Positions 1,852 through 27,272 of a stretch of DNA of 41,201 nucleotides are shown piece after piece (position 1 is the stretch's first letter; each line of letters starts with the position of its first letter). The position numbers and the translations under genes were made by a program. The stretch covers positions 1-41,201 of the forward strand of contig PFGC01000063.1 of NCBI GenBank assembly GCA_002781785.1, in the 5' to 3' direction. Below the pieces are notes generated by a model. It was not told where the DNA came from. It saw nothing but the letters and a program-made list of their open reading frames with translations, and did not search any database. The DNA comes from Candidatus Kerfeldbacteria bacterium CG15_BIG_FIL_POST_REV_8_21_14_020_45_12 (lineage in GTDB: Bacteria > Patescibacteriota > Patescibacteriia > UBA9570 > XYC2-FULL-38-9).

Positions 1852-3765
1852 TTACTGCATCTGTTTTTTAAACTCCTTCTTACTATTTTCAATCTCTAAT
1901 AGCTGCCGCGGATCAGAAGTAACAATCTTATCCTCAACTGGAGAGGCTACCACCTGCATGGCAACGTGCTTTTGTCCGGCAAAGAATATTCCTTGGCCGA
2001 CTGATCCTTCAAGTAACAAATACTTTTCTCCGTCAGTTAACATGAAAGTCTTTTGAATGTTGTCGACAGCGGCTGGTGATTGTTTAAGGAGCATTTGCAT
2101 GGCTGAGTTGGTAACGATAGCAGCTCCATATTGGCTACGAAGAAAATCGTTTACATCCTGCGTGATGGTGGTTACTCCTAAGTAATATTTTCGACAGCGT
2201 TTAACTAGCGCAAAAATAAATTTTGCTGAATCTTCATTTTGCATTAACCACCAAGCCTCATCGATTACCAGAATTCTTTTCTTTAACTCTGAACGAACGG
2301 TATTCCAGATATAATTTACAACCATATAGATTCCTATTGGTCGGAGTTCATCTTCAAGGTCACGTACGGAAAAAACCATCAACTGATTTCTAGTTTCGAT
2401 ATTGGTTGGGGAATTAAAGAGGCCGGCGAATGTACCTTCGGTATATTTTTTTAGCTTAATAACCATGTTCTCTGTGCCTTCAAATCCCTCTAAAATACCA
2501 ATAAAGTCATTCATCAAAGGCGGCTCAATCGTGTGTAGATCGGCCTCTGGTGTGATGTCTTTTTTAGCATAGGTCTCAATCAGGGCCCGGTCTAAAATGG
2601 AATCCTCCATTGGTGTAACTGTCCCCAACATGATCCGGAGCATTCCCTTAATCGTAATAACTGCTGATCGAATAATATCAGCTGGCCGGTCCGCTCCACC
2701 AACCGGCTTTGGCAAATCAAATGGATTGATTTTTACCTGTGAGTTTAGAGAAATATTCATAAAGGTTCCTCCAACTGAATCTGACAGGTGCTTGTACTCA
2801 TTTTCAGGATCGATGATGATAACATCAACACCTAACATCATTGAACGTAGAACTTCTAATTTTACGGTGTAACTTTTTCCAGCTCCAGAGGTAGCAAACA
2901 CAACAGCGTTGGCGTTTTGTAGGGAGAATCGATCAAATACAATTAAGCTACCGTTGTGACGATTAACACCATACATAATTCCGTCATCTGATGTCAGGTC
3001 AGATGAAATGAAAGGAAAAGATGATGCGCACGGCGATGAGTTCATGTTGAAATAAATTCCAAGCTCGTCCTCTCCAATCGGAATAGTCGAGTTAAAACCT
3101 TGCTCAGCCTGATAAAAAACCCGTTTTCCAACAACTAAACGAGAACCTAGCAAACCATCCATCTCCTCCATACGATCATCTAGCGCCTTTTCGTTATCGG
3201 CGTAGGCAGTTATGTACAAGGCATACTGAAAAAACTTCTCAGTACCCTGCGTCAAAGAATCGCGCAGCTGTTCAATGTCACTCAAGGCAGTCTCTCGAAT
3301 TGGATCCCGTGGGGCACCCTTTTCTCTGTCAGACATGATCTGCGCCTCAAGTGTACCCACCTTATTTTTTAACTGCTTCAAAATAACCTCAGCCTTAACC
3401 GGATAAAAGAACATACTAATATCCAGTTCGGCATTCATTAAAATAATTGGCGCGAACCATCCAACTGATATGTAACGAGGATAGGTTACTACATAGATTG
3501 TACTTAGCAATTTCCCTCCAAGATCAACGTGCCTGGACTCAACTGCCATAGCCGACGGCGCGATCAAATCCATAATCGACGTGACGCCTTGTCGATATAT
3601 TTGAGCTGCCTCTAATACCTCAATATCCTCCCGGTTAAGCTTCTCTGACGACACAACCGGTTGCTCCTCAGCTGAAAGAGCTTCTCGAAAACCACCATCG
3701 CGGCCGCGAAGGTCCTTCTTATCTTTCTTGGGTTTGCTTTTAAAATCTACCATAAGTTTAGTCAA
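1852..3765 (-). CDS. VirB4/TraE-type T4SS ATPase
   Basis: Walker A ATSGAGKSYTVK, IIIDPENEY, Walker B-like RILVIDEAWWLM, C-terminal TTITQDVNDFL; typical VirB4/TraC AAA+ signature. Confidence 0.93.
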   Translation of the reverse strand: MTKLMVDFKSKPKKDKKDLRGRDGGFREALSAEEQPVVSSEKLNREDIEVLEAAQIYRQGVTSIMDLIAPSAMAVESRHVDLGGKLLSTIYVVTYPRYISVGWFAPIILMNAELDISMFFYPVKAEVILKQLKNKVGTLEAQIMSDREKGAPRDPIRETALSDIEQLRDSLTQGTEKFFQYALYITAYADNEKALDDRMEEMDGLLGSRLVVGKRVFYQAEQGFNSTIPIGEDELGIYFNMNSSPCASSFPFISSDLTSDDGIMYGVNRHNGSLIVFDRFSLQNANAVVFATSGAGKSYTVKLEVLRSMMLGVDVIIIDPENEYKHLSDSVGGTFMNISLNSQVKINPFDLPKPVGGADRPADIIRSAVITIKGMLRIMLGTVTPMEDSILDRALIETYAKKDITPEADLHTIEPPLMNDFIGILEGFEGTENMVIKLKKYTEGTFAGLFNSPTNIETRNQLMVFSVRDLEDELRPIGIYMVVNYIWNTVRSELKKRILVIDEAWWLMQNEDSAKFIFALVKRCRKYYLGVTTITQDVNDFLRSQYGAAIVTNSAMQMLLKQSPAAVDNIQKTFMLTDGEKYLLLEGSVGQGIFFAGQKHVAMQVVASPVEDKIVTSDPRQLLEIENSKKEFKKQMQ

Positions 3766-4489
3766 CTAGTGTCCTATCAACCTGCATCTGTTCAATATCT
3801 TCGATGCGCTTCTGTTGCTTAGTTACAGGATTATACACATTATAGTACAACTCAATTAAAGCCTGCGTATCCAACATAGCAGTTTCTAGGCCGATTGACT
3901 TTAAGCCAGACTGAACCAGATTGATGTGTCGGTTCATTTCTATTTTATATCTTTCAAACTTTGCCTGACTGAGCCTAACCCTGCTGGCTGGAGCAATAAC
4001 TTCTTGAAGGCGAGTCCAAAAACTCTTTTTCTTCTTTGAAAATGGTGAAAACGGAACAACGACAAAGAATTTTTTATCCATGATATCCGCATCTTTAACT
4101 AGCTTCTCAACAAAGCTACGATATGACAGGGTTTGTTTTCGTAGCAGCTCATTATCTTGTTGACGAGCTAGACCATCAAGCTTACCCAAGTACTTTTCAA
4201 TGTTGAGCCGACGTGACTGCACAACAATTTGTAGTTCAAAATCGATGGTGTTCAAAAAACCTACATAACCTTGAATGATCCCCTTCTGCTCGTCCTCAGA
4301 TTTAAGTGCAAAATTTAGGCTTGATACTAAAATAACAGCTCGGAGAGTACCATCCTTCATGATAACTAAACCATCTCTAATTTCAGCAAAAGGCAGATGA
4401 GCCTGCGAAGAGACCGAAGCGTCGCGTTTTTTTACCTGGCGCAGCGGTTTCTTTTTTTTCTCTTTTAGTTCCTTCTCCTTTTTGCTCAT
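3758..4489 (-). CDS. TraC/VirB4 N-terminal-domain-like stand-alone protein
   Basis: HLPFAEIRDGLVIMKDGTLRAVILVSSLNFALKSEDEQKGIIQGYVGFLNTIDFELQIVVQSRRLNIEKYL resembles the N-terminal domain of TraC/VirB4; overlaps the downstream ATPase ORF by 8 nt. Confidence 0.7.
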   Translation of the reverse strand: MSKKEKELKEKKKKPLRQVKKRDASVSSQAHLPFAEIRDGLVIMKDGTLRAVILVSSLNFALKSEDEQKGIIQGYVGFLNTIDFELQIVVQSRRLNIEKYLGKLDGLARQQDNELLRKQTLSYRSFVEKLVKDADIMDKKFFVVVPFSPFSKKKKSFWTRLQEVIAPASRVRLSQAKFERYKIEMNRHINLVQSGLKSIGLETAMLDTQALIELYYNVYNPVTKQQKRIEDIEQMQVDRTLVD

Positions 4490-5031
4490 AGTTTTCTACC
4501 AAAATTCATTCCGCCGCTATTGTCTCCACCTGTAGATAATGGTACACCTGGCAAAGGAGCTTGATCTGGTAATGGCGCATCAGCCGCAGCCGATACCTTC
4601 ACACCAGCTGGCCTGTAATCATCTGATGAATATATTCCACCGGTATCGACCATTAATGAAACAGAGGCTAAACGAGACTCTGTCAGTGGACCTTTGTTTA
4701 CGTACTCAACTTCTTGTTCAGTAACTTTTTCAACAGGCTCGTGATAGGGCAGCCTGAACCAGAGCTTCAAACGCGGCCGCTTTATAGTTTGCAAGAGATT
4801 CAACAAGAAATAGTGCATGGTCTGGCTATTAACCTTGGCAAAGGCCAGCATTCCGGTAATGCTCAAGGTTAAGAAGATAGCCGGTATAAACAGAAAGGGT
4901 GATAAAAATAGACGAAACCAAAGGTATGACGCGCCAAGTCCAATCATGATTTCGATAAATTGCCTCGCTGAAATAGGCCCGATAATTTTGGCTTCCACCT
5001 CAATAAATTGTGGAACGACGTATTGCTCCAT
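4486..5031 (-). CDS. PrgI family protein (VirB3-like)
   Basis: IEVEAKIIGPISARQFIEIMIGLGASYLWFRLF..LFIPAIFLTLSITGMLAFAKVN: two adjacent TMs typical of PrgI, immediately upstream of TraC/VirB4 genes. Confidence 0.8.
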   Translation of the reverse strand: MEQYVVPQFIEVEAKIIGPISARQFIEIMIGLGASYLWFRLFLSPFLFIPAIFLTLSITGMLAFAKVNSQTMHYFLLNLLQTIKRPRLKLWFRLPYHEPVEKVTEQEVEYVNKGPLTESRLASVSLMVDTGGIYSSDDYRPAGVKVSAAADAPLPDQAPLPGVPLSTGGDNSGGMNFGRKL

Positions 5032-5037
5032 GAAATT

Positions 5038-7290
5038 CTAAAAACGAAGCTGTTTATTAATATCCGAAATAGCCTGAAATTCAGTGATCGAAATTCCATC
5101 TGGCTTGTCTCGTTTCCTTGACTCGATGATGCCCTCGACTGGCACAGACCGCTCAAAACTTTCTCTGCCAATTTCAAGGTACTCATTATTAAGCGGGCTC
5201 TCTTTCCACGCAGTAATACCATCAGATTTTTTCTGAATGGACTCCTGCCCTAATAATTCGATCTTTTCAATGATCTTTGATACAGCCGCCTCTGGAGTAG
5301 CACCAAGCCTCCTAAACTCAAGCGCGGTCATACTACTCAACTCTTCAATTGGACCCATAACCAAAGGTTGGGATGAAGCCGGAAAATTTCTACCAGACGA
5401 ATTAACGTCTGTCATCACCGGCTGTGGTTTTAAATCTGTAATACTCTTTACTCGTGAATCAGGAATTATTACTGGGCCGATTGTATCAGAGTTGGGGCTA
5501 ATGTTTGCAAAAATATCTTCGATATCAGAGATAGCGTTACTGGATCCAAGCGGTGCAGAACCAAGACCTTGGACTGGCTTTGGCATCTTAGGAGCGTGTC
5601 GGGCTACTTGTTGCTTAGCCATATCAAAGGTAAGTCTGGGCGCTGTAGAACGCACTGTCTCTGCCGGCCTCTTACTTACGGATTTTCCTGTTGATTGTAC
5701 CTGCTTTAATAGAGCGTCTGCGCTATCGAGAATAGGATCAATTTGATCAATGGACAAGTCAACACCTCCTTCTTGAGGTGACTTTGTCAGCGATTCACGT
5801 GATTCTATCCTATCGCGAATACCTCGGAGATAAGAAGTGATAACACTAAGGAAGCGGCGCTCCATGTCATAACTTGAGAGCAGTAAGTTATGCTCAGCCA
5901 AAACTTGAGCGGCGAGGTCGCTGTAATCAATTCCAACTTTAGAGCTGGTTCTAGTATTTTTTGGCGCACTGGCTTTGGGCTGAACGCGAGGGGCCGGTGG
6001 AGCTGGCGGCGCTGGAGCTGGTTCAGGAATTGGCGCTGGATCGGGTTGCGGAGCTACCACTGGCTCAGCTTCTTTCAATTCTGGCAAACTAACCTCAGGG
6101 AGCTTTGCTTTATTTTTATCTTCCTGGACTGACAAATCTTCAGAAACTGGCGGTAGAAAATCATCAAAAGATAAACCTGCTTCACCTGAAACTTGAGGAG
6201 TCTCGGAGATAGGCGCGGACACTACTGGCTTAGGCTCCTGTACAAGTGATTCAACTACTGGCTTAGGCTCAGAGACCGCTGGTGCTGGCTCATCTATTTT
6301 TTCAGACAGCTCACTTGGCGTACTGTCTGGTTGTTGATTTGGAGCCTGATAGCGCTTGGCTGGCTGAAAACCATCCTTGTCGCCAACTGACTCATCAAGA
6401 TTTGGCCGACTATTACTGCTAATAATAGGCTCTACCTTGGGCAGCAAGCCTTTGAGAGACGGCGATGTTTTAATAAATTCTGATATAGGCATGGGCTTGC
6501 CCTCCGGTGTGTAGCCCGTGGCAAACCTGAGGCTTTTGACATCCTCTTCTCGGCCAGCTACTCCGGTATCACGCATTTCGCCGTGATCAAATATGAAATA
6601 GTGACCTGTCACCGCGTCTAGAACCAGCGGTTGGTCTTCGATTCCTTCAGGAGTATTCGAAGATTTCATCAGTTCTAAGTTCAACTTAAAGACCCCCTCA
6701 AGCTGCCCTCTCTCATCCTTATTTAGCAGCTGAGCATTAACGTTAGAGTTAAAAAACTCAATAACTTTTAAGCTTGTAGCAGTGTCATCTTTTATGAACT
6801 CTCTCCATACTTTAATCCAATTAGCTACCGTTGGTGCTAGTTTTTGTTCGCCCAGAGTAATATCAGAATTTCCAATGGTGGCATGGGATTTTCCCATGGC
6901 TAGACGAATATTCTGCTTGATAAGATCTCGATGCTGAAGGTCAGGCGTTGCAATTAAAACGCGATCAACTGATTCTTTAATCTCTTCCCAATCATATGAC
7001 AAGCCAATTTGGAAATAATTAGCAAATAGTCTGGTCACTTCTTCTGGTAGCTGCCTATTGAGGGTGGCCCAGCCACCGCGAGCAACAATTTCTTGGGCGG
7101 AACGGTACAGGTCAGGCTGCTCACGCTCAAGACTGCCAAATTTCTCTCTGAGCGTTTTATCCAGGGATAAAGTGAAACTAAAAATCTCATCACGATCGCC
7201 ATCATCCAGCAACGCTTGTAATTTAATACCAAGATCAGTCACCGTGCCGGCATCAGCTAGATTGTATGTTGGTGTTGTCTCCTCTGTCAT
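5038..7290 (-). CDS. Hypothetical 750-aa protein with Pro/Ala/Glu-rich central linker
   Basis: Long ORF in T4SS-like operon; structured N-terminus, then PAPIPEPAPAPPAPPAPRVQPK linker, helical segments. Confidence 0.85.
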   Translation of the reverse strand: MTEETTPTYNLADAGTVTDLGIKLQALLDDGDRDEIFSFTLSLDKTLREKFGSLEREQPDLYRSAQEIVARGGWATLNRQLPEEVTRLFANYFQIGLSYDWEEIKESVDRVLIATPDLQHRDLIKQNIRLAMGKSHATIGNSDITLGEQKLAPTVANWIKVWREFIKDDTATSLKVIEFFNSNVNAQLLNKDERGQLEGVFKLNLELMKSSNTPEGIEDQPLVLDAVTGHYFIFDHGEMRDTGVAGREEDVKSLRFATGYTPEGKPMPISEFIKTSPSLKGLLPKVEPIISSNSRPNLDESVGDKDGFQPAKRYQAPNQQPDSTPSELSEKIDEPAPAVSEPKPVVESLVQEPKPVVSAPISETPQVSGEAGLSFDDFLPPVSEDLSVQEDKNKAKLPEVSLPELKEAEPVVAPQPDPAPIPEPAPAPPAPPAPRVQPKASAPKNTRTSSKVGIDYSDLAAQVLAEHNLLLSSYDMERRFLSVITSYLRGIRDRIESRESLTKSPQEGGVDLSIDQIDPILDSADALLKQVQSTGKSVSKRPAETVRSTAPRLTFDMAKQQVARHAPKMPKPVQGLGSAPLGSSNAISDIEDIFANISPNSDTIGPVIIPDSRVKSITDLKPQPVMTDVNSSGRNFPASSQPLVMGPIEELSSMTALEFRRLGATPEAAVSKIIEKIELLGQESIQKKSDGITAWKESPLNNEYLEIGRESFERSVPVEGIIESRKRDKPDGISITEFQAISDINKQLRF

Positions 7291-10524: not shown

Positions 10525-10553
10525 ATTATAACACAGTTTTTTGATTTTAACAA
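10525..10553 (-). promoter_or_regulatory. Sigma70-type promoter with extended -10 for the VirB6-like operon
   Basis: Minus strand TTGTTA-N17-TATAAT, TGT immediately upstream of -10 (TGn); 36 nt from the ATG. Confidence 0.65.
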
Positions 10554-10607
10554 GTACGCTGCCCAATTGACAACCATATTAGGAAATGTAATCTATTTGG
10601 TAGACAT

Positions 10608-10639
10608 TATAAAACACCCCAATAAAGGGGTGTTTTATA
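10608..10639 (-). terminator. Intrinsic terminator after the giant gene
   Basis: 13-bp perfect stem TATAAAACACCCC / GGGGTGTTTTATA with 6-nt loop, between the giant gene stop and the next promoter. Confidence 0.8.
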
Positions 10640-10657: not shown

Positions 10658-13600
10658 TTAATAACGGACGTAGATATTACCATCGTAGGAATCGTAAGAG
10701 GTGCAAGTTCCGTCATTAGTGCGAGTAATGTCAGTGTACTCAGTTCCGCTACAGAAATTCCAGTTATCGGTTACTTCAACCCACAGCTCATACTTACAAG
10801 CTCCCCAGGCTGGATCATAATCAGCCTCTGAAGAACTGCCACCTAGTGCATACTTATCATAGTAAGCACTGGTTGGATCACAGGTATAGGTGTTTGAGTA
10901 GGAGTGACCATTAGTTGAGGCAGCCTCCCACGGATCAGACAGATAGCTGGCGTCAGAGAAGTCTCCGGTAGTATCTGGGTCAACAAACCAGGCAACTTTA
11001 ATTGTGTTAACTGGTTCCTGATCAGCATCAGCAGCCGTGTCGAAGGTTAGTGATACAGTATCACCATTCTGCAGGATCAAATCACCTGTGTCATTGTTAT
11101 CTAACTCAATATGATTAACCTCAGGTCTGATACCACAGTATTCGTCACTATCTCTAGTGGAGCCGTCGCAAACATCCATACTGCTGAAGTTTCCAGCGGT
11201 TGCAAATCCACTGAACAATGAAGCGTCGCCTGATGTTAGCTCACCGGCATTTCTTAGAGCGTCATCACCACTGCTACCAGCGGCTGGTGCGTAATAAACA
11301 TCACCTTGAATGTCTGCAAAGATCAAACGATAATGCTCCCAACCAAATTCCAAGGCTTTATTCAACTGAGATGCGTAGGTTGACTGGCCCGCTCCTTGGT
11401 GATCAAGATAGGTAAGACTAGTACAGGATCCGTTATCGCAACCTGAGACATCGTCACACATTTGAGCGTTGCCGTCGTCGTCTAGTTCGCTACAAATGCC
11501 CTGGAGACTGATCCATTTATCATCAGTGCAAGCAGAACCATCAAGCTCTCCCCCCGAGGAAGTATAATCGCCCTGACAACGCGTATCTCCACACTTACCG
11601 ATGCAAGCGTAAGGCAAGGTAGTTCCGCTCGCTCCATTCAGGTAAACCATCGGCAAATTAGACTGACTAATAGCGAAGAAGTCATACATATCAGATCCGC
11701 TAGTCGAGTTTTCTTCACCATCTTCTTCGTCTGGTCGCGTGTTACCAGTAGTGCTAAACGAGCCATACATGCTGCCTGCTCCCAGTTGAGAATAATCGAC
11801 AGGACCACTAATAGTGTAGGTGTATAGCAAGTCAGGGATTTGGAAGCCAGAAGAACTAGTGGCTCTAGTTCGCCAAGGCGTGGCCTCACCATCCTCAGTG
11901 GCTCCTTCAACTAACAGCAAACATGGTTCTTTTAGGTAGATGCTCCAATTGATATCGTGAATGCTTTGAACATCAGGCCGCGCTAGACCATCCCAATAAA
12001 CCAGATAAACAGCAGCTAAGTAACCGTCTTGGAAGTCGAACTTAGCCAGGTGCACGTTGGCGCCACAAGGATTGTGACCAAAGCACGAGTCTGTATCGGC
12101 GTCATTGTCTGAATAACGACTATTAAACAGGTTGTCTGAAAAACTGACTCCATCTACTGATCCATTATCAGTATCATCATCGATAGCCCCGGCAACATTC
12201 CAAGCATCTCCATTTTCGCCCAAGACAGAGTAATAGTTAAATGGATTAAATGGCGATGTTGAGCTACTGTCTCCATTCCAAACTGAATGACTTCTTTCAA
12301 TATTAGCCTGATTCTCTTGAGAAGTAATGCTTTTGCCATAGTAGAAATCAATATCATCAAGTTCGGCCTCTGTTAGATTCTCATCACATAGATCGCCGGA
12401 CCCAGTGCCACACCAAGCTCCTTTTTGAACAGCGTAGACTAGATCTTCATCAAGAGAGCCGCCACAGAGAGCGCCTGGATCGTCGTCTTTTCCAACCTGC
12501 CAGAAGAACGTGGTGTCATCCTCACTTGCCCCACCGGTCTGGTACTCTTCGAAATCAGCCGTGTCAAAACCATCAGATCCTTCGAGCCAGGCATTTTGTT
12601 TATTGCTTCCATTACAATCATTACTGCTGTAATAAGGTGTGCCCATGTCATAAACAATCCGGTCAATCTCCGAAACGTGAATCAGCTTTTCAACAGGCAG
12701 GTCAGTGATTTTCTTGAAGACCGCTGCCTCCTCATTGCCCGTTGAATCACCTGTATGCTCTCCGGCTTCAGATTCAACTCTTAAAGATTCAATATTGTGA
12801 TTAACCCGATAACCACCTGAATCATAGGTATTAACCATGTCGTAACCACCGTCAGTATAAGAGCTACTAACGTCATAGTCATTATCAACATCACTGGCGC
12901 CATAACAATAGTTACTGCTGCCGGAACAATCATCATCACTGGCACAGATTTGACCACCGCTAGAGCAAGCCCCTAATGTCTCGTTACCCTTTGCAACCAA
13001 ACAGCTATAAACAGGGGCCTTGTCTGAATAAGTTAACCTAGTTCGACCGGTAGTGTCTGGCTCACCAGACAGAATATCGATTGGCCACCAGGCTACACAA
13101 TCTTCGCTGTCTCCAGGAACAGTGTCATGTAGCAAACAATATCCCTTCCATCCACTGTAGATTGAACCGCTACTATCCTGATAATCACAAGAGTTACTGT
13201 CTTGTTCTGGATAAGCTCTACAATCTCGAGCCAAGCTGGTTGGATGATTTTCCGTTTGCGGATTTCCTTCCTTACGAACTTCTAAAGAAGGTTTCATTGA
13301 AACATTATCGATGGCAAAAGCCTTGCCAGCGTTATTGCTAGTTGCTGCTATAAACAGCGTACTGGTATCGGCAGGGTCAGTCTTGTTCTCTATGGTTAAA
13401 GGTCCAAATGCATAGCTCTCCATGCTTTCGCTCAGCGTGAAAGCTGATACGCTTTCTGAAATTTTTGAGGTGATATCAGAGACGATAGTGCTATAAGTGC
13501 CTGAAATATTATACTGAGTGCCGCCAAGCGAAGCTGTTAAAGCGTCATACCCCTGACTGCTAGTTGGGACGACACTATATAGACTGAAGTTTACTCCCCC

Positions 13601-16600
13601 ATAAGTATTGTCAAAGCTATTCTCATCTGACTGTGCCCAGGAGGAACCGCTGATATAAGGATCACCTTGTCCACCATTTTCTGGATCGGTGTCAGTAAGA
13701 AGGACAATGAACTTCTGGGCACCTGGGCGGAAATTTAATGACTCTGTTCCATTATTGATAGAATTATCAAAGATATTTGCCATCATTTCATAGTTGTAAA
13801 CCTGTCCTCCGTTTAGGTTTGAGGAAATGTAGGTCATGGCATTTGAAAACTCAGTAGCGTCAGTTGTAAAGTCTGTAGTCACTGTGCCATTGGCATTGTA
13901 CTCAAAACCGCTGGAAGTGCTGGAATAATCAGCAAAGTCTAGAATCTTTGGATAACGACTACCGCCTGTGGTAACAATACTCACCTGGTAATCAACTCCG
14001 GCTTCGTCAAAACCACTCACTAAGGCTGTTGTATTTGTGGCCACACTTGAAATGTAACCAGCCATAGTGCTTGAAGTATCGACAGCGAAGACGATATCAG
14101 CTTTAGCCGATCCTACCTCAAAGAAATCAACATTTTGCTCATCACTACCATACTGTAAGGCAACTTGCAAAAAGTCACTATCTGCATCTGGGGTTTCCAG
14201 CCATTTACCATCAAAGGTTACGACGTAATCCTGCCCCTGAACGATGTCGTCTGACACGTCCACTTGAACACCTGAATCCTGCCCGGACACCGGATCAACG
14301 AACAAGACATTGTTTAAATCAACATTCAGAGCGGCTACGTTTAGGTCACCACCATTAATTGGAGAGGTGCCAACATATGGACGATCTTCGTCATAATCAA
14401 TAATCGATACGCTGCTCCCGCCGTAGTTCTCCCACTGACTGTTTGTGCCAAATGTGTTGTCTTGGAAGTTTCCACACCAACCTTCCCAATATCCAATATC
14501 ATCAGTAGTTTCCTCGATTTCTAATTCTCCTAGTTTAGATTCAAGTAGAGTTTCAACTTCAAGCACTCGACAATGTTCATCTAGGGTGCAAGAGGCTGAC
14601 TTGTTTCGTCCGCCGGCAATTTGTCCGTAGTTCAAACCATCTGAGCCGTAGACGGTTTCGGCCTCGTCTCCATTACAAGTTACATCTTCAAAATCACCAT
14701 CTGCAACTATATCCGTAGTGCTAGCTGCACCACCAGAACCAATTTCTGCCATCCAATCTGTTGGATAATATCCGTATATGATATCGCTGGCACTACAATC
14801 AGAGTCTACCGAACAAGCATCTCCGTCGTTAGTTCCACCCTCGCAAACGCTGCTGACACAAGAACCGATCCATTCAGCACCAATGGTGATAAATCCAGAA
14901 TTATCTTGAATATCCAATAGGTCATTGGTGTTTCCAGGTTGAGTTGTCACTCGAAGCTCATCGTCGGAGCCTAATGAGTCTGGATCTCTAGTGTCTGCCC
15001 ACTCTGTACAAACTCCAGTATCTTCGTTTCGGCTCAAACAACGACCAATCTGGAAGCAGGTCTCTGAATCTATTTCCCCGGCGTCATTGACTATGATTCG
15101 GGAACTCCTACAAGACAACCATTCTGAACACTGGCGGTCGTTACGAACTTTTATAACAATGTTTGTGTCTGAGCTATTGGCCTGAGAATCACAAGCCTCA
15201 CTTGGCTCACCATCGTTAAAGGTGCAAGTTTCATCTGTAAAACTACTGTTAACAGCTTGCTGATCCTCTATAGCAGCTAGTGAGGTTAGAGAGTTGTCAT
15301 TTGAATCACGGAAAGATACGCAACCATCTTGAATATCAATCTCTCCGTTGCAAGTGTTGTCACCTGGATTTTCCGCAGCACCGTTTACAGTGTGATTCAA
15401 GTAAGTGTATTGATTATCCTCAGCAAAGCCAACGTTGTCAAAGTAGACGTGCGCTTGATCACTTCCTGACTCTACAAACACCCGAACATAGTAAGTGCTA
15501 CTTGGAAAGCTGTGTGACATGTTAGGACCAACTGTACCGTGAAAATGAACCCACTCATCAGTTGGAACCTCATCATCTGACCTAGAGCCACCTTCGTAGG
15601 CAGCTATAGCGTAATTCTCAACATCAAGACCATTGCTCAATTCGTTGCCACTGGCATCATAGTACAATAGTCCGATGGCAAATTCTGCATCAGCGGTAAC
15701 ACCGTAAACCTCTGCCTGTAATGTGTATATCTTATTTGCATCAACCGGATAAAGTACATTAGAGACACCAGCGGAAAGCGTGGCTGGAAAAGCCATGCAA
15801 TTATTTTTTCCTGATTTGGTTTTAAGCTCGAGAGAATTTGATCGGTGAAAAGCAAAGTCAGTACTTTGAGCGAATGTATCACAATCGCCGCTTTGATATG
15901 AAATTTCAGAAATGCTGTTACCGGTAGGCGTTGGGATTACTCCAGAAGCACCATCTCGGTTCATGAAAGCATTTGCGCCACTAGCAGAACTGGCCACACC
16001 CCAACCATCTGGCTTATCGTCAGCTGTGGTTGATGTTATATCGGAATTATCCTTAACGTTTGTCTCAGCGCTGAAGTCATCAATCATGGTAGCCATGTTT
16101 GGATCGACGTACAAAGTACAGCCACTGTATGGCGCAGTACATCGACCAACCCAACCAGAATCAGCGCTGTCGTTTGAGATACAACGATAGGTATTGGAGT
16201 CGCTTGAGTCAGCTGGACAATCATTATCGGTGCTACAGAGCTCATCCTCTCGTAAACCACCGTTACAGATAGGCCCCTTTGGTTGAGATGGCTCAGCCGA
16301 GTCATTTTGCAAGGGACAAGCATCACCGTCTGGTGTCAACCACTGACCAAGACTGGCATTGTATTCACAATATTTTTCTCCCGGATCTTTAAAGTAGGTT
16401 GTTGAACCTTGGCTATCTGTATACTGCTCACAACTACGTTGGTGCTCCTCACACAAAATAGTGTCGTAAGAATCAGGGTCATTAATAATATACTCAGCAC
16501 TGTAGGATTGAGGGTCTTCACTATCGTCCAATTCAGGCAAGCCGACCAGCTCACAAGCCGCGACTGATGAATCACACTGTACACTGTCGGTGATAACAAT

Positions 16601-19600
16601 GGTTGTAGCAACATCAGCTACGATATTCACATCGTCATTCGGAGTGTTGGTAGCCGACCATTCGTTATCCGCTTGATAAGATGTATAGAATGGCGTATCT
16701 GAATTTTGGGTTTTAATAATGGCCTCGCAACCTACTACGTTATCTGAACACAGGTTAGTGAAAGACTTTAGGTAATTTGTGACGTCTTGCTCATCTGTGT
16801 ACTCCTCACAACCTTCATATCCCAGGCAACTATCGGCACTTTCAAGAATCAGGTAGTGGCTGTTATTTTTTTGCAGCTCAACGTTGTCAATATAGACATA
16901 GCTATCGGTGTATTCGAATCCAAATTCCTCGTCTCCACTAACAGCCTCTGGGAAAGTAAATGGACCGACGCTGTATTTTTGCCACTCCGTACTCAAGTCG
17001 ATATCATCCTCTGAAAGGAAATTTGTTTCAGCAGTTTCAGCCGAATAGAAGTAAGGATAGATCAGTGAACCATCAGTGTCACTCTTGGCCCAGAAGGTAA
17101 CGACATAGCTATCAGCCTCATCAACCAAGCCGGCTACTGTTGTAGCGCCGCTGGTGGCTGCGTTAGTTGAACTAGTTCCAAGCGCCATGGATAAACCAGC
17201 ACTGGCTGTGACCGTTTCAGCTGAAACTTCAGCATCTCCCCAAACTGCTCCGTCATCAAAGTCTTCTTCGATAACAAATTCTACCGCACCTCCCGCAGAA
17301 CCTTTGTATTCTCGACAAAGATTGGCAGAAGCAGGACAGCTCTGGCTTTCATCTGGTATCGAGTAATAGACACGATCATCAAAAGTATTGCGCAAAGGCA
17401 CACAATCATCAGAGGCCGTTATAGTACTTGATTTATACCTCAAGTAATTTGCACCATCTGAATCAAACCATTCTGTACAATCTGGATCGTCACCAATGTC
17501 GCTAGCTGTACAATCATTATAGTTCGCGGAAAGTGTGTCACTATCAATACAGTTGGCGGTTGGTGTTTCTGAGGTGGACCCGTAAAGATCAAGATTGGTA
17601 CAAGGGCCAGCGTCTACATCTGATTTCTTTAAATACCAAGACCGCAACTGGTATCCAGAGATGTCGGAACCTTCAAAGGTATAGTAGGTGTCAATTTCCT
17701 GATCCTCAATTTCTTGAGTAGTTGGCTTAACACATTGACGGATGTATTTGTAATGTTCAACGCCTTCACCACCAAGAGATTCCTGGTCTAAGTTTACATA
17801 CTGTTCACAACCGACGTTATTGGCTGAGCAAGATGTGCCGGTATCAGGGATGATTGAGATCGATGGTAGACAACTCACACCACTGCCACAATCAAGCGTT
17901 TCTCGATCAGGTGAACAAGGGGTGGTTGTATCCTCACAATAGTAGCCTGTGCGTTGCGCAATGGCCTCTGCTAAATCCGCATCAAACGAACTATCTAGGT
18001 AAGTACTAAAACCACTCACGTCGTTGATAGGCGCGTTGTAAGGGGTTTCTTGTTCAATAAAGGCATCACAGCCAACTGTTTCTTCAACACACTGAGAGCA
18101 CTCTGCTCCAGTGTAATCTGATCCATCTCCGCAAGCCTCGGAATACGGGTTAGTAATTTGACCTGGAATTGGAGTATCAGACTCGCCGGTAACAGGAGTG
18201 TAGAGGTTGCAACCGATTTCACCAACGGTACAGGAATTAGCATCATTAAAATTCACGTAAACTAGATCATCAGAGTTTTGATAATCAGAAATACCCGATG
18301 AGCCTGAGTTTTCTTCAAGCGTAACGCCATCCAAAACGATATCGCAACCCGTGCCAGTTGTATTGAAGATGACACCGACGGTGGTTGCTGAAACTCCCGC
18401 GCTGAAGGTAACAAGATCGGAGGTGTAGGTTTGGAAACCGCTGCTGCTAGTTTCTCCAGCGTCAAAGTCGGTAGACTCAGTCATGGCAGAAACTCCAGGC
18501 CAGGTAGTATCTGTTGCGGGATCAGCAAATATTGATCCGGTCACACTACAAGTATTGGCATCGATATTATTATAGGTGAAGCTCAGGGAAAAACTGCGAT
18601 TCTCTAGCGCTTGACCGGTAGCAAAACGATGAACGATGCCACCAGCGACATCACCATCGTACTGCAAAGCAGAGTCACCATACAGCGCCTCGTTAACCGC
18701 GCGGACAGCTGAACCGCTAACTAATTCCCAACCCTGACAATTTTGAGGATTTGTATAGCTCGTGCATGATGCATCGCTAGAGGCAGAAAAACCAAAACTG
18801 TCATCATAAGGAGAGTCGACTGCCGTATCAGTTGGTCCAGCCAGATCGGTGTCGGCATTATCATAAAATTCAAAGCCGCCGTTGGCTAGAAGGTTAGCTC
18901 CTCCCTTTACCGGAATGGTTTCGGTACAGCCACTGTCTTGTGATGAACAGGAGGCTACATCGTCATCAAAGTTAATTGTAGTGTCAAAATCAACATCAGC
19001 ACTTGTCTCCGTACCAAGCGTGCAAGACTCTCCGGTATCAGTGTCACAAGTAAATCCACCCTCGGTGATATCACAGGTTGACGCGTCAGCAGCCGTACAG
19101 CCACAACTTAAAGCACTGCTATCGTAGGTAGAGCTACCGCTATCACAAGTTGAATAAACTTCATCTTGACCAGAGCATTGGAAAGCCTCATCAACTTCAT
19201 TGTAAGTACGGCAACGCCACTGGCAGCCAACGTTATCTACAGAACAATCGTCATAGTTAACTGTGTTTTGTAAGAGTGACTGATCATTACCAGCGTCGTC
19301 AGTAAATAACTCGCATGACGCGTAGTATGATGGGCAAGAATCACCCTCAAAACGGTAGATACGCTCCTGCTGTACACAATATCCATAGGCTTCACAAAAG
19401 CCATTTTCGTCTTCGGATAAACATGACTGCGGATCAAGACAGCTGGTCAAACGAGCAGTGAAAAGTTTTTCTGGAGTATTAACGGCTCCGTCATCGTCTA
19501 TAGCCTCTTCAGCCGCAATGTTGGTGGCGTATCCCTGTAATTTACAAAAAACGTCTGGGGCTTTTAGTGGCCAGTCTGGGTCAACTAATCCACAATAAGG

Positions 19601-21016
19601 AGAGTAGTTACCCTCATCACAATCGTCATAGTTATCTATCACAGAACCGATCGTTAACGGAGTGCCGTCAAAATCGTCATTATAGATGGCGGCTAATTCC
19701 CAACCGACCGGAACGACGCTGTATTGACGGAGGATTCTAATGTTACGTAGTGAGATGCCTAAAGTTGGACTGGTAATGGTCCCTCCGTTGGAATCTAAAG
19801 CGAAGGGAGTCGATGGATCAATGTAACCGAATTCATTAACCGCCTGATTAAGCGTTAAGCCTTCTTCGATAGCCAATCTAAATCCTTCATTAATGACGCA
19901 GTTTGTGACATCAGCTCCCTGTTCCGGACAAGATGCAAATTGGGTTAGAATATCTATCTCTCCACCTGGATTGAAGGTCGGTGTTTTAAATTCAGCGAAT
20001 TTTTCTTCAGCCGCCTTAACTCCTCCAGATCCTGAGGTTGAACTATCTCCAGCGATCGAGCTAGAAATATCTGACTCGGTGAAAAATGCCAGCAAGCCAC
20101 CTGCCAGTCGCTCCATCAACTTATTGGCCAGTGTATTAATAAAAATTGTCAGCGCATCAGCGATGACATTGTCTTGTTGGGTGGTCTCACCAACCGTCGA
20201 CTGACCCAAGACAGAATTTAATTTACCATCAATAACTGCAACCGGCGTTTGTATGTAGCCTGAGATATCAGCCTTTTGAGCTTTTAAACTACTTTGGATT
20301 TGCTCAACAGCGGCTTCACGCTCCTCTTGCTTTTTTGAATCCAAGACCTGATCAGCGGCGTTTAGTAGTGAAGCAATGGAATTTTCCCCACTACCTAAAC
20401 TAACCGAAAGATTGATCATTGACTTAGGATCCTCAACGAAAGCCACCGCTTGATCAGCCAGAGATTCAGCGTAGTCCTGTACATTATTTACCTGCTCTGA
20501 AAAAGTACATTCAGGTTCATATGGCTCATCAGCGGTAAATTGAGGGAGGATTAACTGGAAATTTAACTTAAGACTTGGGTCTGGCAGGTCGCACAAATTA
20601 AAGTAATCAAAACCACCCTCTTCTCCCAGGGTAGAAAAGAAGGCTCCAGCGGCTGCATCAGCGCGCTCAGTAAAATATTCACCCGGCTCCTTAACAAAAG
20701 CTAGCGGCTCTTGATTTTCACCAGCTGAAGCTACCCAAACTGCCGTATCATAGGCAATTTTTTCCAAAAATGACCGTAAGGCGTTTTTAATTCCAACCTT
20801 AGCGGCCGCAACTAGGCCCTTTAAAACAAAATCAATTACCTGCTGGACAACTCGAGGGACATCACCAACCGTTGAAACCTGAGCATGAGCAGCTTGTGGA
20901 GTTAACAACCCAATGGCCACGGCTCCTCCAGCCATAGCGCCAGGAGTCAAAACAGTCATCATCATCATGATGCTGGCGATAAATTTCCGGAATCTGTACT
21001 GGGGTTGGTGTGGCAT
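10658..21016 (-). CDS. Giant 3452-aa secreted Cys-rich mosaic protein (signal peptide, CX6C modules, CBM/jelly-roll-like modules, vWA domain)
   Basis: Uninterrupted ORF; N-terminal signal peptide (RKFIASIMMMMTVLTPGAMAGGAVAIGLLTPQAAHA|Q); repeated C-x6-C motifs; ADIVFAVDTSST vWA MIDAS-like motif; LLANGGFEF... type modules. Confidence 0.93.
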   Translation of the reverse strand: MPHQPQYRFRKFIASIMMMMTVLTPGAMAGGAVAIGLLTPQAAHAQVSTVGDVPRVVQQVIDFVLKGLVAAAKVGIKNALRSFLEKIAYDTAVWVASAGENQEPLAFVKEPGEYFTERADAAAGAFFSTLGEEGGFDYFNLCDLPDPSLKLNFQLILPQFTADEPYEPECTFSEQVNNVQDYAESLADQAVAFVEDPKSMINLSVSLGSGENSIASLLNAADQVLDSKKQEEREAAVEQIQSSLKAQKADISGYIQTPVAVIDGKLNSVLGQSTVGETTQQDNVIADALTIFINTLANKLMERLAGGLLAFFTESDISSSIAGDSSTSGSGGVKAAEEKFAEFKTPTFNPGGEIDILTQFASCPEQGADVTNCVINEGFRLAIEEGLTLNQAVNEFGYIDPSTPFALDSNGGTITSPTLGISLRNIRILRQYSVVPVGWELAAIYNDDFDGTPLTIGSVIDNYDDCDEGNYSPYCGLVDPDWPLKAPDVFCKLQGYATNIAAEEAIDDDGAVNTPEKLFTARLTSCLDPQSCLSEDENGFCEAYGYCVQQERIYRFEGDSCPSYYASCELFTDDAGNDQSLLQNTVNYDDCSVDNVGCQWRCRTYNEVDEAFQCSGQDEVYSTCDSGSSTYDSSALSCGCTAADASTCDITEGGFTCDTDTGESCTLGTETSADVDFDTTINFDDDVASCSSQDSGCTETIPVKGGANLLANGGFEFYDNADTDLAGPTDTAVDSPYDDSFGFSASSDASCTSYTNPQNCQGWELVSGSAVRAVNEALYGDSALQYDGDVAGGIVHRFATGQALENRSFSLSFTYNNIDANTCSVTGSIFADPATDTTWPGVSAMTESTDFDAGETSSSGFQTYTSDLVTFSAGVSATTVGVIFNTTGTGCDIVLDGVTLEENSGSSGISDYQNSDDLVYVNFNDANSCTVGEIGCNLYTPVTGESDTPIPGQITNPYSEACGDGSDYTGAECSQCVEETVGCDAFIEQETPYNAPINDVSGFSTYLDSSFDADLAEAIAQRTGYYCEDTTTPCSPDRETLDCGSGVSCLPSISIIPDTGTSCSANNVGCEQYVNLDQESLGGEGVEHYKYIRQCVKPTTQEIEDQEIDTYYTFEGSDISGYQLRSWYLKKSDVDAGPCTNLDLYGSTSETPTANCIDSDTLSANYNDCTASDIGDDPDCTEWFDSDGANYLRYKSSTITASDDCVPLRNTFDDRVYYSIPDESQSCPASANLCREYKGSAGGAVEFVIEEDFDDGAVWGDAEVSAETVTASAGLSMALGTSSTNAATSGATTVAGLVDEADSYVVTFWAKSDTDGSLIYPYFYSAETAETNFLSEDDIDLSTEWQKYSVGPFTFPEAVSGDEEFGFEYTDSYVYIDNVELQKNNSHYLILESADSCLGYEGCEEYTDEQDVTNYLKSFTNLCSDNVVGCEAIIKTQNSDTPFYTSYQADNEWSATNTPNDDVNIVADVATTIVITDSVQCDSSVAACELVGLPELDDSEDPQSYSAEYIINDPDSYDTILCEEHQRSCEQYTDSQGSTTYFKDPGEKYCEYNASLGQWLTPDGDACPLQNDSAEPSQPKGPICNGGLREDELCSTDNDCPADSSDSNTYRCISNDSADSGWVGRCTAPYSGCTLYVDPNMATMIDDFSAETNVKDNSDITSTTADDKPDGWGVASSASGANAFMNRDGASGVIPTPTGNSISEISYQSGDCDTFAQSTDFAFHRSNSLELKTKSGKNNCMAFPATLSAGVSNVLYPVDANKIYTLQAEVYGVTADAEFAIGLLYYDASGNELSNGLDVENYAIAAYEGGSRSDDEVPTDEWVHFHGTVGPNMSHSFPSSTYYVRVFVESGSDQAHVYFDNVGFAEDNQYTYLNHTVNGAAENPGDNTCNGEIDIQDGCVSFRDSNDNSLTSLAAIEDQQAVNSSFTDETCTFNDGEPSEACDSQANSSDTNIVIKVRNDRQCSEWLSCRSSRIIVNDAGEIDSETCFQIGRCLSRNEDTGVCTEWADTRDPDSLGSDDELRVTTQPGNTNDLLDIQDNSGFITIGAEWIGSCVSSVCEGGTNDGDACSVDSDCSASDIIYGYYPTDWMAEIGSGGAASTTDIVADGDFEDVTCNGDEAETVYGSDGLNYGQIAGGRNKSASCTLDEHCRVLEVETLLESKLGELEIEETTDDIGYWEGWCGNFQDNTFGTNSQWENYGGSSVSIIDYDEDRPYVGTSPINGGDLNVAALNVDLNNVLFVDPVSGQDSGVQVDVSDDIVQGQDYVVTFDGKWLETPDADSDFLQVALQYGSDEQNVDFFEVGSAKADIVFAVDTSSTMAGYISSVATNTTALVSGFDEAGVDYQVSIVTTGGSRYPKILDFADYSSTSSGFEYNANGTVTTDFTTDATEFSNAMTYISSNLNGGQVYNYEMMANIFDNSINNGTESLNFRPGAQKFIVLLTDTDPENGGQGDPYISGSSWAQSDENSFDNTYGGVNFSLYSVVPTSSQGYDALTASLGGTQYNISGTYSTIVSDITSKISESVSAFTLSESMESYAFGPLTIENKTDPADTSTLFIAATSNNAGKAFAIDNVSMKPSLEVRKEGNPQTENHPTSLARDCRAYPEQDSNSCDYQDSSGSIYSGWKGYCLLHDTVPGDSEDCVAWWPIDILSGEPDTTGRTRLTYSDKAPVYSCLVAKGNETLGACSSGGQICASDDDCSGSSNYCYGASDVDNDYDVSSSYTDGGYDMVNTYDSGGYRVNHNIESLRVESEAGEHTGDSTGNEEAAVFKKITDLPVEKLIHVSEIDRIVYDMGTPYYSSNDCNGSNKQNAWLEGSDGFDTADFEEYQTGGASEDDTTFFWQVGKDDDPGALCGGSLDEDLVYAVQKGAWCGTGSGDLCDENLTEAELDDIDFYYGKSITSQENQANIERSHSVWNGDSSSTSPFNPFNYYSVLGENGDAWNVAGAIDDDTDNGSVDGVSFSDNLFNSRYSDNDADTDSCFGHNPCGANVHLAKFDFQDGYLAAVYLVYWDGLARPDVQSIHDINWSIYLKEPCLLLVEGATEDGEATPWRTRATSSSGFQIPDLLYTYTISGPVDYSQLGAGSMYGSFSTTGNTRPDEEDGEENSTSGSDMYDFFAISQSNLPMVYLNGASGTTLPYACIGKCGDTRCQGDYTSSGGELDGSACTDDKWISLQGICSELDDDGNAQMCDDVSGCDNGSCTSLTYLDHQGAGQSTYASQLNKALEFGWEHYRLIFADIQGDVYYAPAAGSSGDDALRNAGELTSGDASLFSGFATAGNFSSMDVCDGSTRDSDEYCGIRPEVNHIELDNNDTGDLILQNGDTVSLTFDTAADADQEPVNTIKVAWFVDPDTTGDFSDASYLSDPWEAASTNGHSYSNTYTCDPTSAYYDKYALGGSSSEADYDPAWGACKYELWVEVTDNWNFCSGTEYTDITRTNDGTCTSYDSYDGNIYVRY
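13460..14115 (-). other. von Willebrand factor A-like domain inside the giant CDS
   Basis: KADIVFAVDTSSTMAGYISSVATNTTALVSGFDEAGVDYQVSIVTTGG...QKFIVLLTDTDPENGG...FSLYSVVPT...TSKISESVSAF: MIDAS DxSxT plus vWA-like secondary structure order. Confidence 0.75.
16105..19345 (-). repeat. Array of CX6C motifs within the giant CDS (about 12 copies, protein level)
   Basis: CPSYYASC, CSVDNVGC, CSSQDSGC, CTVGEIGC, CVEETVGC, CSANNVGC, CPASANLC, CLGYEGC (x5), CSDNVVGC, CDSSVAAC, CEEHQRSC, CTAPYSGC; many followed by xx[Y/F/L]. Confidence 0.8.
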
Positions 21017-21032: not shown

Positions 21033-21998
21033 TTAATTGTTTTCCTCGATCGAGTTACTTATTGAAGATGAGTTGGACTCCGTTTCTTGATTGCTACTTT
21101 GAGTAGTATCCGTAACACCAGCCCCACCTAATAATGCTTGGTCGCCTTCAAAAACTTGATTTGTAGCTTCGATAACGGCCTCATCTACTAATTGAACAAT
21201 TAAATCATCTGACAGCGCATCAACATCGCTTTGTGCTAAACCGGAATCGATCAGAAATGTTCTTTTCTCCTTAACCGACATGTTTCTTATAGATGCAACC
21301 TCATCCTGGACCTGAACGATGGCGTTGGCGCCACTCTGAGCCTGCTTGGCTGCTTCTTCGGCAACCGAGACAATATCTGCGTCACTCGTTGAATCTAGAA
21401 TGTCTTGAGAGATGCCCTGCTCTAGCAGTAGAGCCCTAACGCCCGCGATATCGATTGAACCGTCAGCATTTTTAGGTAACAACTCGTCTGCGGCTGGAGC
21501 GTTTGCTAGATCGACACCGAGCACCCCTTGCTCCGCTGGATTAAATTCAGCAAAGGCGCCAGCAGCTGCCACTTCGGTACCATCCCCTCCTGAGGAAGCC
21601 GATGAACATGGCTGACCTTCTGGACAATTTGGGTTGGTGTTGTTAGCAAGCTCATCTCCATCCGAAATACCATCTGAGTCGGAATCTTTTAAAAATGGGC
21701 TGGTATTGTAAATGAACTCTTCGTCGAAATCCGTAAGGCCATCACCATCCGTGTCTGACTGCTGCTTTCTAATAAGCTCTTCAGCATTGGCGTCAGTATC
21801 ACCAAGGATTTTATCGGGATCATCACCGGCGGCCAGAATTTTGGCAATGATTTCTTCACGCGTTGCATCAAACACATCGCGTTTCGTCGTTGAAAGGTCA
21901 GACCTTAGTTGAAAGATCCCACCAATCAAGACTACCACTCCGATAGCAGCCAATCCATAAACAGAGTAACGATCAATTTTTGTTGGATTTATAGCCAT
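21033..21998 (-). CDS. Membrane-anchored protein with thrombospondin type 3-like Ca2+-binding repeats
   Basis: N-terminal TM (VYGLAAIGVVVLIGGIF) and DTDGDGLTDFDEEFIYNTSPFLKDSDSDGISDGDELANNTNPNCPEGQPC. Confidence 0.85.
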   Translation of the reverse strand: MAINPTKIDRYSVYGLAAIGVVVLIGGIFQLRSDLSTTKRDVFDATREEIIAKILAAGDDPDKILGDTDANAEELIRKQQSDTDGDGLTDFDEEFIYNTSPFLKDSDSDGISDGDELANNTNPNCPEGQPCSSASSGGDGTEVAAAGAFAEFNPAEQGVLGVDLANAPAADELLPKNADGSIDIAGVRALLLEQGISQDILDSTSDADIVSVAEEAAKQAQSGANAIVQVQDEVASIRNMSVKEKRTFLIDSGLAQSDVDALSDDLIVQLVDEAVIEATNQVFEGDQALLGGAGVTDTTQSSNQETESNSSSISNSIEENN

Positions 21999-25988: not shown

Positions 25989-27272
25989 ATGAATCTAGTC
26001 TGGCCACTGGTTCGCCGTGGACTGATTATTGTGCTGGTACTTCCGGCTCTTTTTATTTGGCAAAAGCTCTTTAAGCCTCTAACTGTGGTTTTTTATAAGG
26101 CTTTACTGGTGGTCAGAGCACGTTCTAAAAGCTTCTTTCATGCTGAACATAAATTATTGGCCATTGTGACGCATAGATTTGCCATTCACGCCGTGGTTGG
26201 GACCATGACACTGACGGTGGTTCTGGTCAACGTCAGGCAGGCCGGAGCTGTTCGCTCTGAAGACTTTGCCGACGGCTCTTTAGTTGCGTCAGTTTTTAGC
26301 AAGGAGGAGCTGACTGTTATTACAGCAGATTCAGTGCGTCAGGCGCAGGTTAGGTATGTAGATGTGTCAGCGGCGGTTAGCAAGCAAGACGGAATTAGTC
26401 GCAGTGCCGATGTTGGCGACAATGGATCTTTCTTTGCTGAACAAGGCGGTGCTTTTGTTAGCACCAGCACAATTGGTGGCGTTAGAGGCACTACCCGTGA
26501 AGATATTCAGAAATATGTTGTTCAAGAAGGAGACACAATTAGCACCATTGCAGATAAGTATGGTGTCTCGACAAAAACTGTTATGTGGTCAAATAACTTA
26601 ACAGACGACCAAGCCAAGCGTGTAAGAACTGGAGATACTTTGTGGATCTTGCCGGTTACAGGAGTGGCTCATAATGTTAAATCTGGCGAAACAGTTTCAA
26701 GCATTGCTCAAAAATATAACGCTTCCGAAGATAAAATTATTGAGTTTAATAACTTGCTTGGCGCTGAAGATTTGATAGCCGGTGTTGAGATTATAGTCCC
26801 CGATGGCGAACAGCCCGCCCCGCCACCGCCAACCCCAACGACTACCAGAGTAGCTACTTTTCAGCAGGTCTTTACTCAGTCTGGTGGCACCCCAGCTGCC
26901 AACGCTGCTGTCTCAGGCACTAAATTACAGTGGCCAACCACTACACATAGAATTTCTCAGTACTACGGTTACCGACACACAGGCATTGATGTGGATGGTG
27001 AATTTGGAGATGCTATTTACGCGGCCGAGGGCGGTACCGTAAGATCAGCCGGCTGGTATAGTGGTTATGGCCTGCAGGTAGTAATTGACCACGGCGGTGG
27101 CCTAACAACCCGTTACGCTCATTTACAGAAGGTTTTTGTTAGCGCTGGCCAAAGCGTTGGTCGTGGCCAGACCTTAGGTGAAGAAGGATCAACGGGTAAC
27201 TCAACTGGCTCTCATCTACATTTTGAAGTTATGGTTAATGGAGGTTTCACCAACCCGTTCGGCTACTACTAG
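25989..27272 (+). CDS. Membrane-anchored M23 peptidase with two LysM domains
   Basis: N-terminal TMs; LysM YVVQEGDTISTIADKYGVSTKTVMWSNN and HNVKSGETVSSIAQKYNASEDKIIEFNN; M23 motifs HTGIDVD and HLHFEV. Confidence 0.94.
   Translation: MNLVWPLVRRGLIIVLVLPALFIWQKLFKPLTVVFYKALLVVRARSKSFFHAEHKLLAIVTHRFAIHAVVGTMTLTVVLVNVRQAGAVRSEDFADGSLVASVFSKEELTVITADSVRQAQVRYVDVSAAVSKQDGISRSADVGDNGSFFAEQGGAFVSTSTIGGVRGTTREDIQKYVVQEGDTISTIADKYGVSTKTVMWSNNLTDDQAKRVRTGDTLWILPVTGVAHNVKSGETVSSIAQKYNASEDKIIEFNNLLGAEDLIAGVEIIVPDGEQPAPPPPTPTTTRVATFQQVFTQSGGTPAANAAVSGTKLQWPTTTHRISQYYGYRHTGIDVDGEFGDAIYAAEGGTVRSAGWYSGYGLQVVIDHGGGLTTRYAHLQKVFVSAGQSVGRGQTLGEEGSTGNSTGSHLHFEVMVNGGFTNPFGYY

Follow-up and report, generated by a model that had tools for sequence, protein, structure and literature searches.

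Introduction

How Patescibacteria make contact with host cells is a central question of their biology. T4SS has been reported as essential for the epibiotic growth of Southlakia, a saccharibacterium (PMC10633639), and a survey of patescibacterial T4SSs, which covers ABY1, describes MPF_FATA-like systems and reports finding no adhesin of the PrgB kind (Quinonero-Coronel 2025, PMC12102498). The stretch of DNA analyzed herein (the window, 41,201 nt) is one contig of a 94%-complete, 1.22-Mb Candidatus Kerfeldbacteria genome in 64 contigs, and raises this question in a concrete form: what is a secreted protein of 3452 aa, encoded beside T4SS genes, doing there?

The Giant Reading Frame and Its Locus

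The giant frame starts with ATG, contains no internal stop codons, and encodes 114 cysteines and a protein with a pI of approximately 4.05 (4.0–5.0 in 20 computed family members). The single 10.4-kb minus-strand frame claimed in a preliminary description of this DNA, made from the letters alone, was exact at both ends (Table 1), and the claimed signal peptide is read directly as a hydrophobic signal sequence ending in AHA-Q; a hydrophobic N-terminal signal region is present in all 57 complete giants of the family described below. The reported absence of LPxTG and of a C-terminal transmembrane segment (TM) is upheld for the window giant as well: a C-terminal TM is found in 0 of the 57 complete giants, and an LPxTG-like string occurs in the last 100 aa of 2 of the 57 orthologues.

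On the minus strand, the gene order is LeuRS, Sua5, KsgA, TSP3_bac protein, giant, VirB6-like, P750, PrgI, VirB4-N, and VirB4, with 16 nt from the TSP3 stop codon to the giant start. The VirB6/VirB4/PrgI-like neighbors named in the preliminary description were recovered by profile matches for VirB4 and PrgI and, for the VirB6-like protein, which has no Pfam match, by position, membrane segments, and orthology. A VirB4 ATPase, PrgI/VirB3, and VirB6 thereby stand in the conserved order of a patescibacterial (MPF_FATA-like) T4SS locus. Like the T4SSs in the accessible text of PMC12102498, the locus clusters VirB6, PrgI/VirB3, a TrsD-like VirB4-N, and VirB4; unlike the component list in that text, where neither is named, it includes a secreted protein (giant here, short elsewhere) and its TSP3 partner. 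VirB4 is split into the TrsD-like N-terminal frame and the ATPase frame (3758–4489 and 1852–3765), an arrangement seen at almost every T4SS locus compared in the different classes.

Downstream of the giant stand a strong terminator-like hairpin and a promoter-like site, the latter in a region where such sites are no more numerous than in shuffled sequence; because of these two elements, the giant and TSP3 genes are probably transcribed as a unit separate from virB6–virB4 in the window.

Several minor features accompany the locus. A divergent gene for a LysM + M23 peptidase (25989–27272, plus strand) adjoins LeuRS and the T4SS cluster. Genes for peptidoglycan enzymes of the LysM type are also found near KsgA in the non-ABY1 loci L130, L140, and L142, and such an enzyme is a possible substitute for VirB1. 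Positions 1–1000 of the window have strong strand asymmetry (GC skew −0.26, AT skew −0.38) and a low-complexity LYLYLY frame at 139–468. A PADLOC search for defense systems gave 0 matches.

Table 1. Features of the window, in window coordinates; aa positions refer to the giant protein.
Feature	Coordinates	Strand	Basis
VirB4 ATPase	1852..3765	-	TraG/VirB4 P-loop E 2.6e-26
VirB4 N-terminal (TrsD-like) protein	3758..4489	-	profile and locus comparison
PrgI/VirB3-like protein	4486..5031	-	Pfam PrgI E 7e-6, just short of cut-off
P750, conserved locus protein, function not assigned	5038..7290	-	locus conservation
VirB6-like polytopic protein, 1060 aa	7307..10489	-	position, membrane segments, orthology
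Promoter-like site TTGTTA-17-TATAAT ahead of virB6	10525..10553	-	sequence reading
Terminator-like hairpin between giant and virB6	10605..10639 (approximate)	-	-23 kcal/mol, z -5.9
Giant, 3452 aa, exported; family of orthologues across ABY1	10658..21016	-	ORF reading, orthologues
Conserved C-terminal PKD/Ig-like region, aa 3298-3452	10661..11125	-	15-giant consensus
vWA-like domain, aa 2307-2447	13676..14098	-	marginal Pfam match
Conserved disulfide-rich core, aa 1048-1640	16097..17875	-	alignment, model pLDDT 78.6
CBM4/CBM22-like beta-sandwich, aa 1247-1388	16853..17278	-	family profile and fold
Conserved Cys domain, aa 336-605	19202..20011	-	profile; AF2 confident ~aa 350-550
N-terminal helical domain, aa 47-274, common to short T4SS-locus proteins of other classes	20195..20878	-	profiles, loci
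Signal sequence, aa 1-46, predicted cleavage AHA-Q	20879..21016	-	direct reading
TSP3_bac protein, 321 aa, one N-terminal TM, Ca-binding-type repeats; directly upstream of giant	21033..21998	-	Pfam E 6.7e-8

An Orthologous Family Across ABY1

Homologues of the N-terminal 387 aa of the window giant were found in 52 of 57 relatives. The named relatives are Kerfeld-, Falkow-, Uhr-, Buchanan-, and Kuenenbacteria, which we take to be ABY1 members in GTDB, and the window genome is assigned to class ABY1 on that ground. A profile search with the N-terminus recovered the family, normally in single copy, in 264 of 286 ABY1 genomes, and every assembly among the misses listed has at least 20 contigs. The 57 distinct complete giants are 2393–4118 aa long; the two nearest complete relatives share 44–45% identity with the window protein along its length, and one of them (L023) aligns with it as a single stretch, aa 8–3451. 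Blocks conserved across the class (aa 50–600, 1050–1450, 1500–1560, 1885–2010, and 2600–2680) are collinear from end to end, with lineage-specific inserts between them and the remainder of the protein lineage-specific, and a full-length alignment of 15 giants contains approximately 100 invariant columns, many of them Cys. These columns rule out a random mosaic, and the "mosaic" of the preliminary description is replaced by an orthologous scaffold with lineage-specific inserts.

The same evidence settles whether the frame is real. The preliminary description had itself raised assembly fusion as a test, and fragmentation of the source genome into 64 contigs would allow for an assembly or annotation artefact; nevertheless, collinear full-length orthologues, such as the one in L023, occur in many independent assemblies, including near-complete ones, and exclude both fusion and a chance frame, so that the probability of an artefact is practically nil. 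No published description of the family was found in the searchable, mainly open-access journal literature on ABY1, on Uhrbacteria/Falkowbacteria, and on giant proteins.

Cysteines, Domains, and Folds

The number of cysteines after residue 35 is even in 52 of the 57 complete giants, in a range of 80–190 (binomial p = 6e-11, a value weakened by kinship between genomes), and seven control residues have no excess of even counts in complete giants. The even counts point to disulfide pairing, very probably of all giant cysteines; since the counts span a wide range, gains and losses of cysteine must have come mostly in pairs. Parity is an argument, drawn from sequence only, that a giant protein is fully oxidized outside the cell. 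VKOR, an enzyme class driving disulfide formation, is encoded in the genome (E 8e-21), and a signal sequence and paired cysteines, as in a Sec-exported disulfide-paired protein, are both read from the sequence.

The AF2 model of the N-terminal region is confident for the Cys domain and of low confidence for the helices. Neither its sequence nor its fold found a counterpart in the PDB, and identification of the N-terminus as a known T4SS protein was rejected for want of any Pfam, PDB sequence, or PDB fold match; comparison with VirB5/TrbJ likewise gave neither a Pfam nor a PDB match, the fold comparison being limited by the low-confidence helices. The core is better defined. Its modeled β-sandwich matches the CBM22/CBM4/CBM16 fold (4xuo, TM score by target 0.64) and its sequence profile matches 4xup (E 3e-11), the window's CBM-like copy being recognized only via the family profile and the fold. 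Among 15 giants searched with Pfam, CBM_4_9 (PF02018) was found in 12, Dockerin_1 in 2, and VWA in 1. CBM-like sandwiches are also known in non-binding structural roles. Foldseek matches of the core model to insecticidal and binary toxins are not counted as evidence of a toxin: they are to common jelly-roll/CBM folds, with TM scores of approximately 0.25 or less. The C-terminus has a PKD-like VDWGDG...DNWxxC motif in the consensus, degenerate in the window, and a WGDG-type string occurs in 22 of the 57 complete giants.

The Cys-rich and sandwich modules of the preliminary description are redefined as disulfide-rich domains, CBM4/22-like sandwiches, and a C-terminus that is PKD-like in the consensus. 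Its vWA domain fares less well. The match is real but marginal, at 25.5 bits in the genome search (above the cut-off) and 19.1 bits in hmmscan (below the cut-off of 23.8), with DTSST instead of DxSxS at the MIDAS position, and the region aligns only within the window's own order, a confinement that rules it out as the key domain and leaves it incidental to the conserved architecture.

Linkage to the T4SS and Short Homologues Outside ABY1

Among ABY1 loci, a TSP3 gene lies at most 1.5 kb upstream of the giant in 65 of 69 (usual gap 0–40 nt), KsgA lies upstream in 51 of 63, and virB6 lies downstream in 22 of the 32 with room to see it. In 16 of 25 ABY1 genomes, the contig of the giant also encodes VirB4, at a distance of at most approximately 26 kb, against approximately 1 expected by chance (tally from the phylum searches), and in the other 9 the TSP3–giant pair is far from virB4 or on another contig; virB4 also lies within approximately 15–25 kb in 4 further genomes without virB6 in the first 20-kb locus. 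The preliminary description would have been undermined by homologues placed at random relative to virB6 and virB4, and their placement relative to these genes is not random. A paralogue taking the giant's place was also considered and rejected, as no second N-terminal-domain copy was found upstream of virB6 in nine detached or interrupted loci.

Two successive N-terminal profiles identified relatives of the N-terminal domain in 18 non-ABY1 genomes, in frames of 280–1144 aa; this number is not a prevalence figure, because the short form diverges fast and the profiles may miss members. VirB4 was found in 273 of the 286 genomes of the phylum sample used for this search. The short homologues, which were detected by sequence alone, are placed between KsgA/TSP3 and virB6; in each of the 17 loci whose sequence was available, they precede virB6 either directly or with one gene in between (L140 is counted because its genome-level match falls inside a frame that is itself below the ORF-level threshold). 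Approximately 85% of the giant is not common to the short form. Since the short homologue occupies the virB6-adjacent slot without the giant body, the T4SS link predates that body, and the preferred interpretation is that the giant arose in ABY1 by enlargement of an older secreted protein of the T4SS locus.

Proposed Role and Alternative Explanations

The giant is probably an exported contact arm that is stiffened by disulfides, binds glycans, and acts together with the T4SS, a reading we hold with moderate confidence. Its export signal, disulfide pairing, orthology, locus association, and CBM-like folds are supported by the sequence data, and from there we infer T4SS docking or contact, glycan binding, and host contact or adhesion. 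The giant would leave the cell by Sec, its many cysteines would be oxidized to disulfides with the genome-encoded VKOR, and the conserved N-terminal domain would hold it at the envelope, with the TSP3 membrane protein and the VirB6/VirB4 apparatus as probable points of attachment. The acidic, disulfide-stiffened, CBM4/22-bearing body of approximately 3000 aa would then extend outward and bind glycans of a neighboring (host) cell, which would thereby be drawn up to the T4SS, and lineage-specific inserts such as the vWA may set the target. Doubt arises mainly from the probable separate transcription of the giant and TSP3 genes, from the loci detached from virB4, and from the N-terminal fold without a known match. 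A broader proposal, tentative and at slightly less than even confidence, is that the short N-terminal domain is an unrecognized secreted component of the T4SS on which Patescibacteria rely for life on other cells, and the ABY1 form a disulfide-braced glycan-binding arm of approximately 250–430 kDa, the missing adhesin of the patescibacterial T4SS. The exported, T4SS-linked, possibly undescribed component of the preliminary description is thereby supported, with host attachment carried over as a proposal. The family is a near-universal, locus-linked adhesin candidate for the whole class ABY1, and the small homologue of other classes would be testable if present in cultured species.

The contact arm resembles several known systems in part. 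Like PrgB-type adhesins of Gram-positive conjugation, the giant is a large surface protein that is exported by Sec, is encoded alongside a T4SS of the MPF_FATA type, and may be adhesive; unlike them, it lacks LPxTG, is disulfide-rich, and carries CBM4/22 modules, and no AgI/II-type (PrgB-related) adhesin domain was matched by Pfam in giants. TraN of F-type conjugation, likewise a Cys-rich exported T4SS-associated protein, combines a conserved scaffold with a variable part for recognition, as the giant may do, whereas TraN is an outer-membrane protein of diderms and Patescibacteria are monoderm; the giant-family searches gave no match to TraN. The core is similar to CBM4/CBM22 modules such as those of Xyn10C (4xup) in profile and β-sandwich fold, but those are parts of xylanases and no enzyme domain was found in the giant. 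By description, the giant is also like the large, exported, Cys-rich surface proteins of Peribacteria, another CPR lineage, for which a role in attachment was proposed; those are multi-copy and, in the accessible text, are not described as T4SS-linked (PMC4736985), nor, in the accessible text of PMC8080830, are the giant surface proteins of Vampirococcus.

The latter proteins, proposed there for a fibrous surface, lend some weight to the view that the giant builds an S-layer-like coat or fibre on the ABY1 surface, with a place at the T4SS locus that is historical and CBM-like sandwiches that bind the cell's own envelope glycans or act as spacers. A near-universal single gene with an acidic, disulfide-rich product, transcribed separately from virB6 and, in 9 of 25 genomes, lying away from virB4, would suit such a coat. 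However, a short homologue without the body holds the slot before virB6 in other classes, and the Pfam search of giants found no S-layer (SLH) domain; we consider a coat unlikely. That same slot, together with the Sec signal and the conservation of the N-terminal domain in both forms beside virB6, could instead indicate a conduit or tip part of the T4SS (a VirB5 role or outer channel), in which the N-terminal domain would form a stretch of channel past VirB6 and the ABY1 body a long sheath instead of an adhesin, the more so as, according to PMC12102498, Patescibacteria lack VirB8 and further parts on the periplasmic side or have them in unrecognized form. Searches by sequence and by fold, the latter with low-confidence N-terminal helices, gave no match to VirB5, to VirB8, or to another part of a T4SS; approximately 85% of the giant is absent from the short form, and the CBM modules suggest binding, so that we regard this as quite unlikely. 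An effector or toxin delivered by the T4SS, for which the neighborhood and large size speak, is very improbable given a Sec signal sequence with apparently fully paired cysteines, universal single-copy orthology, and no catalytic domain found in giants.

Variant Arrangements

Individual genomes depart from the usual arrangement. In G001 (L023:202-19538), the TSP3–giant pair directly follows pilM, pilN, pilO, pilB, pilT, and pilC-like genes, read as those of a type IV pilus, an adjacency that hints at common regulation or assembly. Two inverted, identically scoring giant-like frames of 1957 aa lie approximately 53 kb apart in G043 (C2:643744 and C2:696401), a rare duplication, and the source genome encodes a second vWA protein elsewhere, in a 781-aa frame (G000:C44:3498-4004, L002). 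Outside ABY1, the gene between the short homologue and virB6 in G071 (L130:9955-12330) encodes a TSP3-like protein of 791 aa whose TM is C-terminal, which suggests that TSP3 and arm functions can be rearranged. In L137 (4418-7351) and L142 (4074-7238), the same position is occupied by a protein of 977–1054 aa that contains Ig-like repeats and Cys, and a large surface arm may have arisen there in parallel.
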